Shown here one piece after another: positions 27,694 through 64,000 of a stretch of DNA of 64,000 nt (positions are counted from its first letter, which is position 1; each line of letters begins with the position of its first letter). The stretch lies in assembly GCF_001040705.1 (NCBI RefSeq), contig NZ_CVQP01000011.1, positions 186,248 through 250,247 of the forward strand, written 5' to 3'. Origin of the DNA: Rhodococcus sp. RD6.2 (lineage in GTDB: Bacteria; Actinomycetota; Actinomycetes; Mycobacteriales; Mycobacteriaceae). Position numbers and translations under genes: made by a program. The notes below the pieces were generated by a model. That model was given only the letters and a program-made list of their open reading frames with translations. It did no database searches and had not been told where the DNA came from.

Positions 27694-27697
27694 GAAA

Positions 27698-58036: not shown

Positions 58037-59518
58037 GTGTCTGACTCCACCGCCGTGAAGTACCCCGTGACGACGCGGGCGTTCGGTCTCGCGATCGTCG
58101 TCCTCAGCGGAATGCAGCTGATGATGGTCCTCGACGGGACGGTGGCGTCGCTGGCACTGTCCCGGATCCAGGAGGACCTCGGCCTCAGCGACGCCGGCCG
58201 CAACTGGGTCATCACGTCGTACGCACTGACGTTCGGTGGACTGATGTTGCTGGGCGGCCGCCTCGGCGACGCCTTCGGTCGTAAACGGGTGTTCATCGCA
58301 GGTGTCGCGATCTTCACCGTCACCTCGCTGCTGTGCGGACTCGCGTTCAACGAGGCGACACTCGTCGCGGCGCGGGCACTACAGGGCGTCGGCGCCGCGA
58401 TCGCGTCACCGACCGCGTTGGCGCTCGTCGCGACCACGTTCGCTCCCGGCCCGGTCCGCAACCAGGCCATCGCGATCTTCGCGGCCATGACCGGTGTCGG
58501 ATCGGTCACCGGACTGATCGCGGGCGGCGCGCTCACCGAGGTGTCGTGGCGGTGGATCTTCCTGATCAACGTGCCCATCGGCCTCGTCATCCTCGCGTTC
58601 GCGTTCAGTTCGCTGACGGAGACCAACGCCGAACGGCTCAAGCTCGACGTGCCCGGAGCGATTCTCGCGACACTGGGCTGTACCGCCGTCGTGTTCGGAT
58701 TCACCGAGGGACCCGAGATGGGCTGGGGGAGTCCGCTCGTGCTCGCCGGGCTGATCGGTGGTCTCGTGCTGCTCGGTGTGTTCCTGATGGTGGAACGGCG
58801 CGCAGAGAACCCCTTGTTGCCGTTCTCCCTGTTCCGCAGCAGAGACCGTGTCGCGACGTTCATCGCCATCGCCCTCGTCGGCATGGTGATGTTCTCGCTG
58901 GCACCGTTCGTCGCGCTGTTCGTGCAGGACGTGCTCGGATACACCCCGCTGCGGGCGGGCCTGGCGTTCGTGCCGTTCGCGTTCGGGCTCGGTGCTGCCG
59001 CGTTCGTCGCGTCGAAACTGGCGGTCCGCGTCGCGCCGCGATGGCTGGTCGCGACCGGCACCCTGCTCACCTTCGCCGGCCTCCTGTACGGCTCCACCCT
59101 CGACACGTCCACGACCTACATCGCGCACCTGCTCGGGCTGGTGATCGGCGTCGGATTCGGCGTCGGTTTGGCGGTCGTGCCGCTCCCGTTGTGCGCGATC
59201 TCCGGAGTCGGGCCGCACGAGATCGGGCCGCTCGCCGCGATCGCGCAGGTCGCCAATGTGCTGTTCGGTCCCATCGGTCTCGCGATCGTCGGCGCCATGG
59301 CGACGTCGAAGACCCTCTCGCTCGGTGGTGTCTCGGGTGTGCCCGCCGCGGAGATGGACGCGGCCCAGCTCGACGCTCTCAGCCAGGGCTACACGTTCGC
59401 GTTGCTCGGGTGTGCGATCCTGGCCGCCTTGGCGACGGTGGCCGCACTGTTCATCCGGTTCACGCCGGAGCAAGTGGCGCAGGCGCAGGCTGCGGAGAAG
59501 GCAGCCCAGGAGGCCTAG
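58037..59518 (+). CDS. efpA: EfpA-like MFS efflux transporter
   Basis: 493-aa, fourteen-helix DHA2-type drug exporter. Sequence segments such as LSDAGRNWVITSYALTFGGL, LLGGRLGDAFGRKR, SPTALALVATTF and GGALTEVSWRWIFLINVPIG closely match mycobacterial EfpA, and it occupies the same place after cysG. It lacks the roughly 40-residue N-terminal extension I recall for EfpA. GTG 58037 is preceded by no strong ribosome site. Its substrate range is not known here. Confidence 0.85.
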   Translation: MSDSTAVKYPVTTRAFGLAIVVLSGMQLMMVLDGTVASLALSRIQEDLGLSDAGRNWVITSYALTFGGLMLLGGRLGDAFGRKRVFIAGVAIFTVTSLLCGLAFNEATLVAARALQGVGAAIASPTALALVATTFAPGPVRNQAIAIFAAMTGVGSVTGLIAGGALTEVSWRWIFLINVPIGLVILAFAFSSLTETNAERLKLDVPGAILATLGCTAVVFGFTEGPEMGWGSPLVLAGLIGGLVLLGVFLMVERRAENPLLPFSLFRSRDRVATFIAIALVGMVMFSLAPFVALFVQDVLGYTPLRAGLAFVPFAFGLGAAAFVASKLAVRVAPRWLVATGTLLTFAGLLYGSTLDTSTTYIAHLLGLVIGVGFGVGLAVVPLPLCAISGVGPHEIGPLAAIAQVANVLFGPIGLAIVGAMATSKTLSLGGVSGVPAAEMDAAQLDALSQGYTFALLGCAILAALATVAALFIRFTPEQVAQAQAAEKAAQEA

Positions 59519-60342
59519 GCGGATCCGGCCCAGAATTCGACGAGCACCTTCGTGAGTTCTGCGGGCTTCTCCTCGTTCGGTGTGTGGGCGGCGCCGGCGA
59601 TGATCTCGAATCGCACGCCGAGCCGGGACGCGGCGTCGGCCTGGACGTCCACCGGAATGACGTCGTGTTCACCCGCGACGACGAGGATCGGCACGCCGGC
59701 CGCGGCGAGTTCCTCGACACGGTCGGGCTCGGCACTCATGGACACGGCGATGCCAGCGATGTTCGCGGTGCGGGTAACCATGATGCGGTGGTGCAGGAAC
59801 TCCTTCACCGGCGCCGGGAAGATCTCCTCGAACGCGCCGAACATCGCCTGCCACAGCGCCTCGTTGCCGCCCGCCCACAGCAGGTCCGGGATCCGGGCCG
59901 GGTCCACGGGCATGCCCAGGCTCTGGCCGCTCGGCGGCGAGTCGAGGATCGTGTAGTCCAGGAAGCGCGCCGGATCGGCGAGGATGGCGGCCCGGGTGAC
60001 GAGTCCGCCGAAGCTGTGGCCGACGAGGTGCACCTTCTCCGCGGGCGCCACCTTGTCCAGCACCTCCGCGAGGTCGAGGGCGAACTTGGCCACCGTGTAC
60101 TCGCCGACCGCATCGCGGCCGTCCGGTCCGTCCGAGTCGTACTGGCCGAGCTGCGAGTACGAGATCAGTCGGTACCCGGCGGCGGTCACGTACGGGGCCA
60201 TCGGCAGGAAGTCCTCGCGGGAGCCGGTGAAGCCGGGGACCATGACGACGGTTCCCAGCACGTCCGTACCCGCGTCGGGAACCGCCTCGAAGAAGGACAG
60301 TTCGCCGCGTGAGATCGCGAGTCGGGACAGGGTGACGGTCAT
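59515..60342 (-). CDS. Alpha/beta hydrolase
   Basis: 275-aa alpha/beta hydrolase with a complete triad: oxyanion VVMVPGFTGSREDFL, nucleophile elbow VHLVGHSFGGLVTRA (GHSFGG), acid in VVAGEHDVIPVD and His in IAGAAHTPNEE. The layout is that of small ester or epoxide hydrolases. ATG 60342 follows AGGAGAGC. Its stop overlaps the efpA stop by 4 bp from the opposite strand. Substrate unknown. Confidence 0.88.
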   Translation of the reverse strand: MTVTLSRLAISRGELSFFEAVPDAGTDVLGTVVMVPGFTGSREDFLPMAPYVTAAGYRLISYSQLGQYDSDGPDGRDAVGEYTVAKFALDLAEVLDKVAPAEKVHLVGHSFGGLVTRAAILADPARFLDYTILDSPPSGQSLGMPVDPARIPDLLWAGGNEALWQAMFGAFEEIFPAPVKEFLHHRIMVTRTANIAGIAVSMSAEPDRVEELAAAGVPILVVAGEHDVIPVDVQADAASRLGVRFEIIAGAAHTPNEEKPAELTKVLVEFWAGSA

Positions 60343-60471
60343 GTGCTCTCCTGGTGCCGGGTGATCGACAGGCTACGTCGCCATTCGGCGAGCCACCGGC
60401 CGCCACGCCCGGTAGCCGCCACGCATGTAAATGCCTCGCCGAACAACCTCGTCACAAGTACCGTCCGATCG

Positions 60472-61866
60472 GTGCACCTCTCACTGACCGCAACGGCGTC
60501 CGCCGACTTCCCGGACGCCTCGGACCTCGGCCACCTCCTGCACAAGCACCCCGACCGGGTGCAGACCTTCGATCTGTCGGTGGGCACCGCGACCGTCGTG
60601 TACCCCGAGGTGTCGACGTCCCGGTGCACGGTGACGTTGCTGCTCGACGTCGATCCGGTGGAGATGGCGCGCGGCTCGTTCCGTGGTGGCGCCGACGGGT
60701 TCGCGCTGGGCCAGTACGTCAACGACCGCCCGTACGCGGCGTCGTCGATGCTTGCGGTCGCGATCTCGCGGGTGTTCAAGTCGGCTCTCGCCGGGACGCT
60801 GACGTCCCGGCCGGAGCTTCCCGGAACCCCGGTCTCCCTGACCGTCGAGGTGCCGGTGACGCCCGCCCGCGGCGGAGCCGACCTGCCCGCCCGGCTGTTC
60901 GGTCCACTCGGGTGGACGGTGACATCGATGCCCGTGCCGCTGGACGAGACGGTCCCACGGTGGGGCGACTCGGACTACGTGCGCCTGACCCTGGACGGAA
61001 CGCTCACCGTGTCGGAGGCGCTGCGCCACCTCTACGTGCTGCTTCCGGTGCTCGACGACGTCAAGCACTACTGGGTAGGCGACGCCGAGGCGGACAAGCT
61101 GGTGCGGATGGCGGGCGAGTGGCTCGCCGACCACCCCGAGCACGAGCTGATCGCCGCCCGCTACCTGGCGCACCGGCGTGAATTGGTGGCGTCGGTGGCC
61201 GATCGGCTCGCCGACGGCGCCGCGGCTCCGGCCGGCGAACCGCGGGTCGCGAGCGCGGGTCTTGCTCGACTGCGCCAGGAGGCGGTCCTGGCGACGCTGG
61301 AGGACCTCGGCGTTGCCCGCGTGGTCGACGTGGGCTGCGGTGAGGGCAAGCTGCTGCGGGAGCTGCTCGCCCGGCCGGCCTTCACCGAGATCGTCGGCGT
61401 CGACGTCGGAGACATGGCGCTGCGCAGGGCCGAACGCCGGCTCGGACTCGCCGAACTGCCCGACCGCCAACGGGCACGGATCTCGGTGCTGCAGTCGTCG
61501 GTGACCTACCGGGACGCGCGCCTGCGCGGCTTCGACGCGGCCGTGCTGATGGAGGTCGTCGAGCATGTCGACGAGGACCGCCTACCCGCGCTGGTTCGCT
61601 CGGTGTTCGCCGACATGCGGCCGCGGTTCGCACTGGTGACCACTCCCAACGCCGAATACAACGTGCTGTACCCGAATCTCGAAACCGGCATGTTCCGCCA
61701 TCCGGATCACCGGTTCGAGTTCACCCGAACACAATTCGAGGCCTGGGCCACCGACGTCGGTGAGGCGCACGGCTACGACGTCCGGTGCACCGGGATCGGC
61801 GATCTCGATGCGATCCACGGTGCGCCGACCCAGATGGCCGTTTTCACACGAAGGGAGGAGGCGTAG
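60472..61866 (+). CDS. hen1: Hen1: 3'-terminal RNA ribose 2'-O-methyltransferase
   Basis: 464-aa bacterial Hen1, which 2'-O-methylates the 3'-terminal nucleotide at a broken RNA end before ligation. The N-terminal Hen1-L domain opens with DLGHLLHKHPDRVQTFDLS; the SAM domain has VVDVGCGEGKLLREL at about 284-298. The Mn-binding residues E361, E364 and H365 (EVVEH) and the His pair 410/413 (RHPDHRF) are present. GTG 60472 matches the family start; the open frame reaches 60343. It is directly followed by pnkp, its functional partner. Confidence 0.93.
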   Translation: MHLSLTATASADFPDASDLGHLLHKHPDRVQTFDLSVGTATVVYPEVSTSRCTVTLLLDVDPVEMARGSFRGGADGFALGQYVNDRPYAASSMLAVAISRVFKSALAGTLTSRPELPGTPVSLTVEVPVTPARGGADLPARLFGPLGWTVTSMPVPLDETVPRWGDSDYVRLTLDGTLTVSEALRHLYVLLPVLDDVKHYWVGDAEADKLVRMAGEWLADHPEHELIAARYLAHRRELVASVADRLADGAAAPAGEPRVASAGLARLRQEAVLATLEDLGVARVVDVGCGEGKLLRELLARPAFTEIVGVDVGDMALRRAERRLGLAELPDRQRARISVLQSSVTYRDARLRGFDAAVLMEVVEHVDEDRLPALVRSVFADMRPRFALVTTPNAEYNVLYPNLETGMFRHPDHRFEFTRTQFEAWATDVGEAHGYDVRCTGIGDLDAIHGAPTQMAVFTRREEA

Positions 61867-64000
61867 ATGAGCGACACGGAAGTGCTCGAGATCCCGGCAG
61901 CGTCGCTGGTCGTCCTCGTCGGCATCAGCGGATCCGGCAAGTCGACATTCGCCGCCCGGCACTTCGGGCCCTACGAGGTGATCTCGAGTGATCACTGCCG
62001 AGGCCTGGTCAGCGACGACCCCAACTCGCAGGCGGCGACGGCCGACGCGTTCGAGGTGCTCGAGTTCATCGCGTCCACCCGGCTACGTGCGGGCAGGCTG
62101 ACCGTCGTCGACGCGACGAGCGTGCAGCCCGCGGCGCGGCGCACACTGGTCGATCTGGCCCGCTCGCAGGACATGCTCGCGGTGGCGGTCGTGCTGAACG
62201 TCCCCGAGTCGGTGTGCGCGGAGCGCAACGCCGCGCGCGGGGAGCGGGCGTTCGACCGGGCCGTCCTGCGGCGTCAGCACCAGCAGCTCACCCGGTCCAT
62301 GCGCGGGCTTACCCGCGAGGGCTTCCAGGTCGTGCACGTCCTGGACGGCGTCGACGCGGTGGAGCAGGCGCGGATCCTGCGGCGACCGCTGCGGAGCGAC
62401 CGCCGCGACCTGCGGGGCCCGTTCGACGTCGTCGGCGACATCCACGGCTGCCTCGGTGAACTCGAAACCCTGCTGACGACACTCGGTTACGACATCGTCC
62501 GGGACGAGTCGGGTCGCTCGGTGGATGCGCGTCCGCCGGAGGGGCGGACGGCACTGTTCCTCGGCGACTACGTGGACCGGGGTCCCGACGCTCCGGGCGT
62601 GCTGCGTCTGGTGATGGGCATGGTCGCCGCGGGTCACGCACTGGCCCTTCCGGGCAACCACGAGAACAAGCTGGTCAAGGCGCTGCGCGGGCGGAAGGTC
62701 GCCGCCACACACGGCCTCGATCGGACCCTCGAACAACTCGGGAACGAGACCGAGGAGTTCCGCCGCGAGGTGGCGCAGTTCTGCGACGGGCTCGTCGCGC
62801 ACCTCGTGCTCGACGAGGGACGGCTCGTGGTGGCACACGCGGGCCTCAAGCAGGAGTACCACAACCGGGCGTCGGGCCGGGTGCGCAGTTTCGCCCTGTA
62901 CGGCGAAACCACCGGTGAGACGGACGAGTTCGGGCTTCCCGTTCGCTATCCGTGGGCCGAGGAGTACCGCGGTGACGCGATGGTGCTCTACGGGCACACA
63001 CCGGTGCCCGAGGTGCGGTGGGTCAACAACACCGCCTGCCTGGACACCGGGTGCGTCTTCGGCGGCGCGCTCACCGCGCTGCGCTATCCGGAACGGGAGG
63101 TCGTTTCGGTTCCCGCGCAGCGGGAGTGGTACCCGCCGATCCGGCCGCTGCACGTCTCCGACACCGATCCGCAGGCGCTCGACATCGCGGACATCATGGA
63201 AGTCGGGGGAGTGGAGACGTCGCTGCGCGGGCGGGTCACGGTGCGCCCGGAGAACGCGGCGGGGGCGCTCGAGGTGATGAGCCGCTGGGCGGTGACGCCG
63301 CAGTGGCTGACGTACCTGCCCCCGACCATGTCGCCGTGCCCGACCTCCTCGCTGCCGGGCCTGCTCGAGCACCCGACCGAGGCCTTCGCTGCGTACCGGA
63401 AAGCGAAGGTGGACAGTGTGATCTGCGAGGAGAAGCACATGGGGTCGCGGGCCGTCGCGCTCGTGTGCCGCGACGCCGCCGTCGCCGCCGAGCGGTTCGG
63501 AGTCCGGGACGGTCTCTCCGGAATGGTGCACACCCGCACCGGCAGGCGCATGTTCGACGCGGAGCAGACCGAGCGCCTGGTCTCGATGATCGCCGGCGCG
63601 GTTACGGCGGCCGGGCTGTGGGACGAACTCGGCACCGACTGGCTGCTGCTGGACGCGGAGCTGCTGCCCTGGTCGGCGAAGTCGGAGGGGCTGCTGCGGT
63701 CGCAGTACGCAGCGGTGGGGGCGGCGGCCCGCGCCGACCTGTCGGCCAGGGAACGAGTTCTGGAAGCCGCGGCCGCTCGCGGCCTCGATGTCGCCGCGCT
63801 GCGGGAGAGTGCCCGGTCCCGAGCGGACGACGTGGCGCGCTACGTCGGCGCATACCGGCGCTACGTCTGGCCGACCGAGGGACTGAGCGGGGTGCAGATC
63901 GCCCCGTTCCAGCTGCTCGCCACCGAGGGAACCGGATACGCCGACCGCGATCACGGCTGGCATCTCGCGGTCGCGGACCGGCTGGTCGAGGTGGCGCCGG
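61867..64000 (+). CDS. pnkp: Pnkp: polynucleotide kinase-phosphatase-ligase, 3' truncated by window edge
   Basis: RNA end-healing and adenylyltransferase partner of Hen1. The 711 codons visible show three modules in order. The kinase has Walker A at 19-27 (GISGSGKST) and D82 in VVDATS. The binuclear metallophosphatase has GDIHG at 190-194, GDYVDRG at 233-239 and GNHEN at 263-267. The ligase-like domain has the nucleotidyl Lys K523 in EEKHMGSR. Full-length Pnkp is about 850 aa, so roughly the last 140 residues are cut off. ATG 61867 begins at the hen1 stop with GGGAGGAGG upstream, so the pair is co-translated. Confidence 0.94.
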   Translation, partial: MSDTEVLEIPAASLVVLVGISGSGKSTFAARHFGPYEVISSDHCRGLVSDDPNSQAATADAFEVLEFIASTRLRAGRLTVVDATSVQPAARRTLVDLARSQDMLAVAVVLNVPESVCAERNAARGERAFDRAVLRRQHQQLTRSMRGLTREGFQVVHVLDGVDAVEQARILRRPLRSDRRDLRGPFDVVGDIHGCLGELETLLTTLGYDIVRDESGRSVDARPPEGRTALFLGDYVDRGPDAPGVLRLVMGMVAAGHALALPGNHENKLVKALRGRKVAATHGLDRTLEQLGNETEEFRREVAQFCDGLVAHLVLDEGRLVVAHAGLKQEYHNRASGRVRSFALYGETTGETDEFGLPVRYPWAEEYRGDAMVLYGHTPVPEVRWVNNTACLDTGCVFGGALTALRYPEREVVSVPAQREWYPPIRPLHVSDTDPQALDIADIMEVGGVETSLRGRVTVRPENAAGALEVMSRWAVTPQWLTYLPPTMSPCPTSSLPGLLEHPTEAFAAYRKAKVDSVICEEKHMGSRAVALVCRDAAVAAERFGVRDGLSGMVHTRTGRRMFDAEQTERLVSMIAGAVTAAGLWDELGTDWLLLDAELLPWSAKSEGLLRSQYAAVGAAARADLSARERVLEAAAARGLDVAALRESARSRADDVARYVGAYRRYVWPTEGLSGVQIAPFQLLATEGTGYADRDHGWHLAVADRLVEVAP

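Follow-up and report, generated by a model that had tools for sequence, protein, structure and literature searches.

The window analysed here, a 64,000-nucleotide (nt) stretch of DNA from Rhodococcus sp. RD6.2, carries the RNA repair genes hen1 and pnkp at its right edge. WhiB7 most likely activates this canonical Hen1-Pnkp operon, from a predicted promoter that would yield a leaderless hen1 mRNA. The first-pass annotation of the window left open what the pair repairs here and overlooked the promoter, which bears on what the pair responds to. The reading of a WhiB7-type promoter upstream of hen1 appears to be new.

Predicted WhiB7 promoter of hen1

The published promoter of WblC and WhiB7 consists of the box GAAAWY, a gap of 3 bp, the -35 element TKGMNN, a spacer of 16-19 bp and the -10 element TANNNT, with the transcription start 7-8 bp further on (PMC7157823). 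Upstream of hen1, a predicted box GTAAAT (60427-60432, + strand) agrees with GAAAWY at 5/6 positions. It is followed after 3 bp by a predicted -35 element TCGCCG (60436-60441, + strand; 3/4 against TKGM) and, across a 17-bp spacer, by a predicted -10 element TACCGT (60459-60464, + strand), which stops 7 nt short of the start codon. The whole site, GTAAAT-gcc-TCGCCG-N17-TACCGT at 60427-60464, matches 11/13 consensus positions with two mismatches, and is one of four sites scoring at least 11 in 72,002 strand-bases around the locus. Since hen1 has no ribosome-binding site and the -10 element lies 7 nt before its GTG, the mRNA is probably leaderless. The box, the 3-bp gap, the TKGM -35, the spacer and the distance from -10 to start resemble the WblC/WhiB7 regulon promoters described for S. 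coelicolor and M. abscessus; unlike the published examples, the predicted transcription start of hen1 coincides with the start codon. Elsewhere in the window, the sole 12/13 site of long spacing lies at 27694.

A comparison of six genomes of the genus, the source genome included, gives site scores of 11-12 for the three members that have the pair. M. abscessus also has a second class of promoter, whose -10 is closer by about ten bases (PMC10727445). This short-spacing class fits the hen1 sites of G004 (a congener), Nocardia stercoris, two Oerskovia and two Planosporangium.

The promoter was followed through a first set of 96 actinobacterial hen1 loci (16 plus 80 among the matches listed), of which 95 were scored after dropping L132, whose start was not identified. 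A held-out set comprised 81 further hen1 genes from the class, or 79 once the duplicates L186 and L196 had been removed. A -10-like NANNNT ends 6-7 nt before the hen1 start in 67/90 loci, against a background of 2.4% per offset, and this placement was replicated in 64/81 held-out genes. A Shine-Dalgarno match of at least 4 precedes 88/95 pnkp but 20/90 hen1 genes. Alignment of the hen1 promoters by their -10 hexamers brought out, de novo and at fixed distances, an AAA block together with a TGG-type -35; this was before the published motif was consulted. The AAA stands at that place in 44/79 hen1 genes, compared with 13/344 other genes in these loci that look leaderless.

Sites were then scored over the 13 consensus positions, with the -10 ending 5-8 nt before the start and a pass mark of 9. 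Among hen1 genes, 64/95 reach this mark, as do 58/79 in the held-out set; of the remaining genes in the first-set loci 85/1354 do, a count that rises to 156/1354 when each gene is allowed its best-scoring in-frame start nearby. At a score of at least 10, long spacing alone gives 36/95 hen1, 0/95 pnkp, 12/1364 other genes and 1/1900 shuffles; with decoy spacings only 1/95 and 2/95 hen1 genes reach the pass mark. Eight non-actinobacterial hen1 genes, with both spacing classes allowed, score 6-8 (0/8 at 9).

The source genome also encodes the regulator. One of its nine WhiB-family matches (L170 1435-1725; eight of the nine were inspected) has the EPWGVWGG turn and the AT-hook RGRPRK, and is assigned as whiB7 because both are present. 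The gene is found in 6/6 genus genomes, and the 1,500 nt upstream of it hold a single site of 11-12 in each, 401-483 nt before the whiB7 match. The whiB7 promoter is autoregulated, so a site in this place is expected, and the distance fits the long leader of whiB7.

Beyond the genus, the search for whiB7 covered 50 genomes from the group of 80 loci in the first set, together with 80/81 held-out genomes (G396, 85% complete, was excluded). The three genus loci were tested separately and stand outside the 116 counted below, and the other 13 of those 16 first-set loci lay outside the whiB7 search. The gene was found in 41/50 first-set genomes, one of them without the AT-hook end, and in 77/80 held-out genomes. 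A site of at least 9 precedes hen1 in 89/116 whiB7-positive genomes against 0/12 whiB7-negative genomes (Fisher p 1.6e-7, kinship ignored).

An ordinary housekeeping leaderless promoter could also drive the pair, in which case the A-rich block would be a generic UP-like element and WhiB7 would be uninvolved. The -10/start geometry by itself fits sigma-A, the first -10 base is T in only 13/67 loci, and the 27/116 whiB7-positive genomes that score below 9 both favour this explanation and count against WhiB7. However, the AAA block keeps a constant distance to the -10 and occurs there in only the 13/344 other leaderless-like genes noted above, and all 12 whiB7-negative genomes fall below 9 though at least four of them (L103, L157, L231, L232) retain the -10. 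On balance, a housekeeping promoter is an unlikely explanation.

Further observations weigh against control by WhiB7. The site of the source genome reaches only 11/13, and that of G004 belongs to the rarer short-spacing class. The whiB7-negative genomes are not independent, as seven of the first nine are Microbacteriaceae and form one Pnkp group, and L116 (Quadrisphaera, score 6) was counted as whiB7-positive on a match without the AT-hook end. The pass mark is also reached by 6% of other genes, and the six spacings allowed in the scoring were picked after consulting two papers. A Streptomyces subclade that scores under 9 has a Shine-Dalgarno-like GGAGAGG in place of the site, and the Rhodococcus aetherivorans plasmid hen1, outside the 95, scores 6 at its annotated start. 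Hen1, RNA repair and RNA ligase also go unmentioned in the main text, gene table aside, of the S. coelicolor work on WblC (PMC7157823).

The low-scoring genes were searched for sites placed elsewhere. For the 31 hen1 genes that score below 9, no WhiB7 site of at least 11 was found within 300 nt. A site upstream of the gene that precedes hen1 in Streptomyces, presumably an oxidoreductase as named from its sequence, was considered as an explanation of the exceptions, and none reaches 11. The R. ruber plasmid hen1 scores 7 at its annotated start, which is not its conserved start. Twelve plasmid regions were fetched in all; Deinococcus ficus (start cut off) and Rhizobium (without annotation) were left out of the scoring.

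The Hen1-Pnkp pair

Judged from its sequence, the pair is a complete, canonical bacterial Hen1-Pnkp of the known enzyme kind. The gene hen1 (60472-61866, + strand) has a GTG start without a Shine-Dalgarno sequence and encodes a 464-amino-acid (aa) 3'-terminal RNA ribose 2'-O-methyltransferase. The protein matches TIGR04074 with 631.8 bits (curated cut-off 340; positions 7-462 of 462 aligned) and the Pfam family Hen1_L (PF12623), the N-terminal ligase-activating region, with 335.8 bits. A 507-aa frame opening at 60343 was rejected as the hen1 start, as similarity to other Hen1 N-termini begins only at 60472. The gene pnkp (+ strand) occupies 61867-64000 within the window and runs on to the equivalent of 64404; it has GGGAGGAGG upstream of its start and encodes an 845-aa kinase-phosphatase-ligase. 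Its 3' part was read from the window's own contig past the right edge (L009 4115-6652). The protein matches TIGR04075 with 1352 bits over positions 3-851 of 851.

These results bear out what the first-pass annotation had described. The two genes adjoin with a gap of zero at the stop/start junction TAGATG (61864-61869), as it had stated. The solved Hen1 domains and the solved Pnkp kinase, phosphatase and ligase domains all align to the pair, the Pnkp domains in that order, which agrees with the order first proposed from motifs. The Pnkp C-terminus beyond 64000, a point it had set down for checking, is present at full length and ends in LESEPVDPRL, the same as the solved protein 4drf. The claim that Hen1 keeps its metal and S-adenosylmethionine (SAM) ligands also holds, in that D286, G288, C289, G290, E361, E364, H365, H410 and H413, which we take to be the metal/SAM residues, are invariant across 13 aligned sequences. 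The expected sequence blocks, which have catalytic roles in the family, are all present, namely DVGCGEG at 286, EVVEH at 361 and RHPDHRFE at 409 in Hen1, and GISGSGKST at 19, GDIHGC at 190, GDYVDRGP at 233, GNHE at 263, YGHTP at 375, EEKHMGSR at 521 and GEGMVVKP at 745 in Pnkp.

The two genes are reported always to share one operon, in about 250 species (PMC4411300). The adjacency here agrees with this arrangement, and pnkp is the next gene on the same strand in 96/96 actinobacterial hen1 loci. An Rfam search of the 18-kb locus gave zero matches. In another genome, a hen1 match (G189:C1:1556578-1557966) has one in-frame TAG stop.

Genomic location and neighbouring genes

The pair lies in an interval between efpA and yaaA. 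A major facilitator superfamily (MFS) transporter gene (58037-59518, + strand; EfpA in the first-pass annotation) forms the left border of this variable interval in 6/6 genus genomes. Between it and hen1 is a divergent alpha/beta hydrolase gene (59515-60342, - strand), which adjoins hen1 and whose DNA is unmatched in the corresponding intervals of the five other genus genomes. Both hen1 and pnkp are present in 3/6 genus genomes and both are absent in the other three. Absence from half the genus could suggest decay or loss of function of the pair in this lineage. However, the proteins are full length with intact blocks, they are 76-83% identical to those of the two congeners that have the pair, and the promoter site is found in all three carriers; decay is thus highly improbable.

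The interval differs among all six genus genomes and holds the pair in three of them, so it is a site of gain and loss. In the nearest relative, G001, whose efpA is 91% identical, 0.68 kb separates the matching blocks, compared with 4.97 kb here, made up of the hydrolase, hen1 and pnkp. In G003 and Prescottella defluvii hen1 directly follows efpA, while in G004 and P. agglutinans other genes stand between the two. The Pnkp proteins of the source genome, G003, G004, P. defluvii and P. agglutinans form one group (support 95), and the source genus is probably Prescottella or one near it. The suggestion that this junction is a lineage-specific insertion point is therefore borne out in part. The interval is variable and the pair patchy, but since the pair occupies the same interval in its carriers, whose Pnkp proteins group together, an old site with repeated losses is the simplest account and fits as well as a fresh insertion. 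A variable array of neocarzinostatin or IPT/TIG-like proteins near yaaA (L009 10451-12340; L067 12200-15636; L068 10925-14231) shares the interval with hen1-pnkp, and its make-up varies between congeners.

The patchy presence (3/6 genus genomes; 85/296 class genomes at E 1e-80) and the variable interval would also fit a pair carried as a passenger by a mobile or defence island and mending damage from a linked ribotoxin. In addition, 17 plasmid records have Pnkp matches, and one copy has a RelE-type toxin-antitoxin pair on either side. However, PADLOC applied to the pair and eight neighbours (two left, six right), the stretch scanned for toxins, gave no ribonuclease toxin and only generic methyltransferase and helix-turn-helix regulator matches; this agrees with the first-pass annotation, which had seen no such toxin. 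The commonest neighbour cluster among the 96 loci is the oxidoreductase-like gene (17/96), not a toxin, with genes called by a simple script that left those under 50 aa uncalled. The location is also common to congeners. A passenger role is accordingly quite improbable, and the linked toxin was rejected as a partner on the neighbour clustering over the 96 loci and PADLOC at the own locus.

Other candidates for a partner or an origin were rejected as well. In Streptomyces, Streptantibioticus and Nonomuraea the oxidoreductase-like gene precedes hen1, but a relative lies downstream in three Oerskovia loci, so it is read as local synteny rather than a partner. A phage origin was rejected since Pnkp is absent from 50,697 phage records at E 1e-30, although one paper on a jumbo phage names Hen1 as well as Pnkp, and RlaP was rejected as part of the system since it is absent in 6/6 genus genomes.

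Several loci elsewhere have distinct surroundings. Six Rhodococcus loci (L086, L087, L088, L090, L091, L095) have a predicted EF-Tu gene immediately before hen1, and in all except L088 this gene is preceded by predicted fusA, rpsG and rpsL. Two Rhodococcus plasmids typed conjugative (L177, L178) carry hen1-pnkp, the R. ruber copy being flanked by two Phd/RelE-type toxin-antitoxin pairs. Two nucleotidyltransferase genes stand within or beside hen1-pnkp on two Deinococcus plasmids (L174, L179) and an Asticcacaulis plasmid (L180), and those of L174 and L180 match RlaP, an RNA-repair nucleotidyltransferase family. On a Skermanella plasmid (L173), an RtcB-family ligase gene and prfH lie about 2 kb from hen1-pnkp, so that two systems connected with RNA repair and translation are neighbours there.

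Comparison with known RNA repair systems

The pair has the domain order, adjacency and sequence blocks of known bacterial Hen1-Pnkp, and no differences in the enzymes were found. A WhiB7-type leaderless promoter for such a pair was not found in the literature searched. The Pnkp1-Rnl-Hen1 complex of Capnocytophaga has the same four activities in three proteins (PMC4411300), whereas here there is one fused Pnkp. The RNA repair operon RtcR-RtcBA is controlled by damaged tRNA, and RtcR has a CARF-type domain (PMC7790460). The likeness is that of an RNA repair operon under damage control, but RtcR is unrelated to WhiB7. The chemistry of the RtcB ligase differs from that of Hen1-Pnkp; RtcB is encoded elsewhere in the source genome and is present in 3/6 genus genomes, the source included.

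The passages on the WblC/WhiB7 regulon name no RNA repair genes as members. A link between WhiB7 and Hen1, or between WblC and Hen1/Pnkp, was not found in the open-licence literature searched, supplementary gene tables aside; these may already hold one. No link between WhiB7 and Pnkp was found there among the matches listed, and where WhiB7 and "RNA repair" are mentioned together, the context is unrelated in the passages concerned.

Proposed role in the translation-stress response

Under control by WhiB7, translation stress from ribosome-targeting antibiotics or toxin-cut tRNA would stall ribosomes and raise WhiB7, which would bind and activate the hen1 promoter so that Hen1-Pnkp is produced. 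Pnkp would heal the RNA ends, Hen1 would methylate the terminal 2'-OH and the Pnkp ligase would seal the break, and the 2'-O-methyl guard would make the mended site uncuttable at the same place. Family membership suggests that the pair repairs and 2'-O-methylates cleaved RNA in this way. Of the links in this loop, the first have been published for a different species, the one through the promoter is a prediction of this analysis, and the repair steps are carried over from the family. Since the alarm would be ribosome stalling, the pair most probably acts on RNAs that stall ribosomes when cleaved, tRNA foremost.

In M. abscessus, no transcript rises more than whiB7 when VapC5, a toxin that cuts tRNA, is expressed, and this was linked to ribosome stalling (PMC10287673). 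The same source gives a 5'-phosphate as the end left by VapC cleavage, so this precedent covers the alarm and not the ends that need healing by Pnkp, which weighs against the full loop.

A tentative extension, with somewhat less than an even chance, is that Hen1-Pnkp serves the WhiB7 translation-stress response as its repair arm throughout the Actinomycetota. RNA damage would then be sensed through stalling. Being leaderless, the hen1 mRNA may allow the repair enzymes to be translated after a ribotoxin has removed the 16S anti-Shine-Dalgarno end, although this benefit of a leaderless mRNA is speculation. A WhiB7-type promoter would identify stalled ribosomes as the alarm and show under what conditions to seek the substrate. 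If the reading is true, RNA repair would join the translation-stress response.

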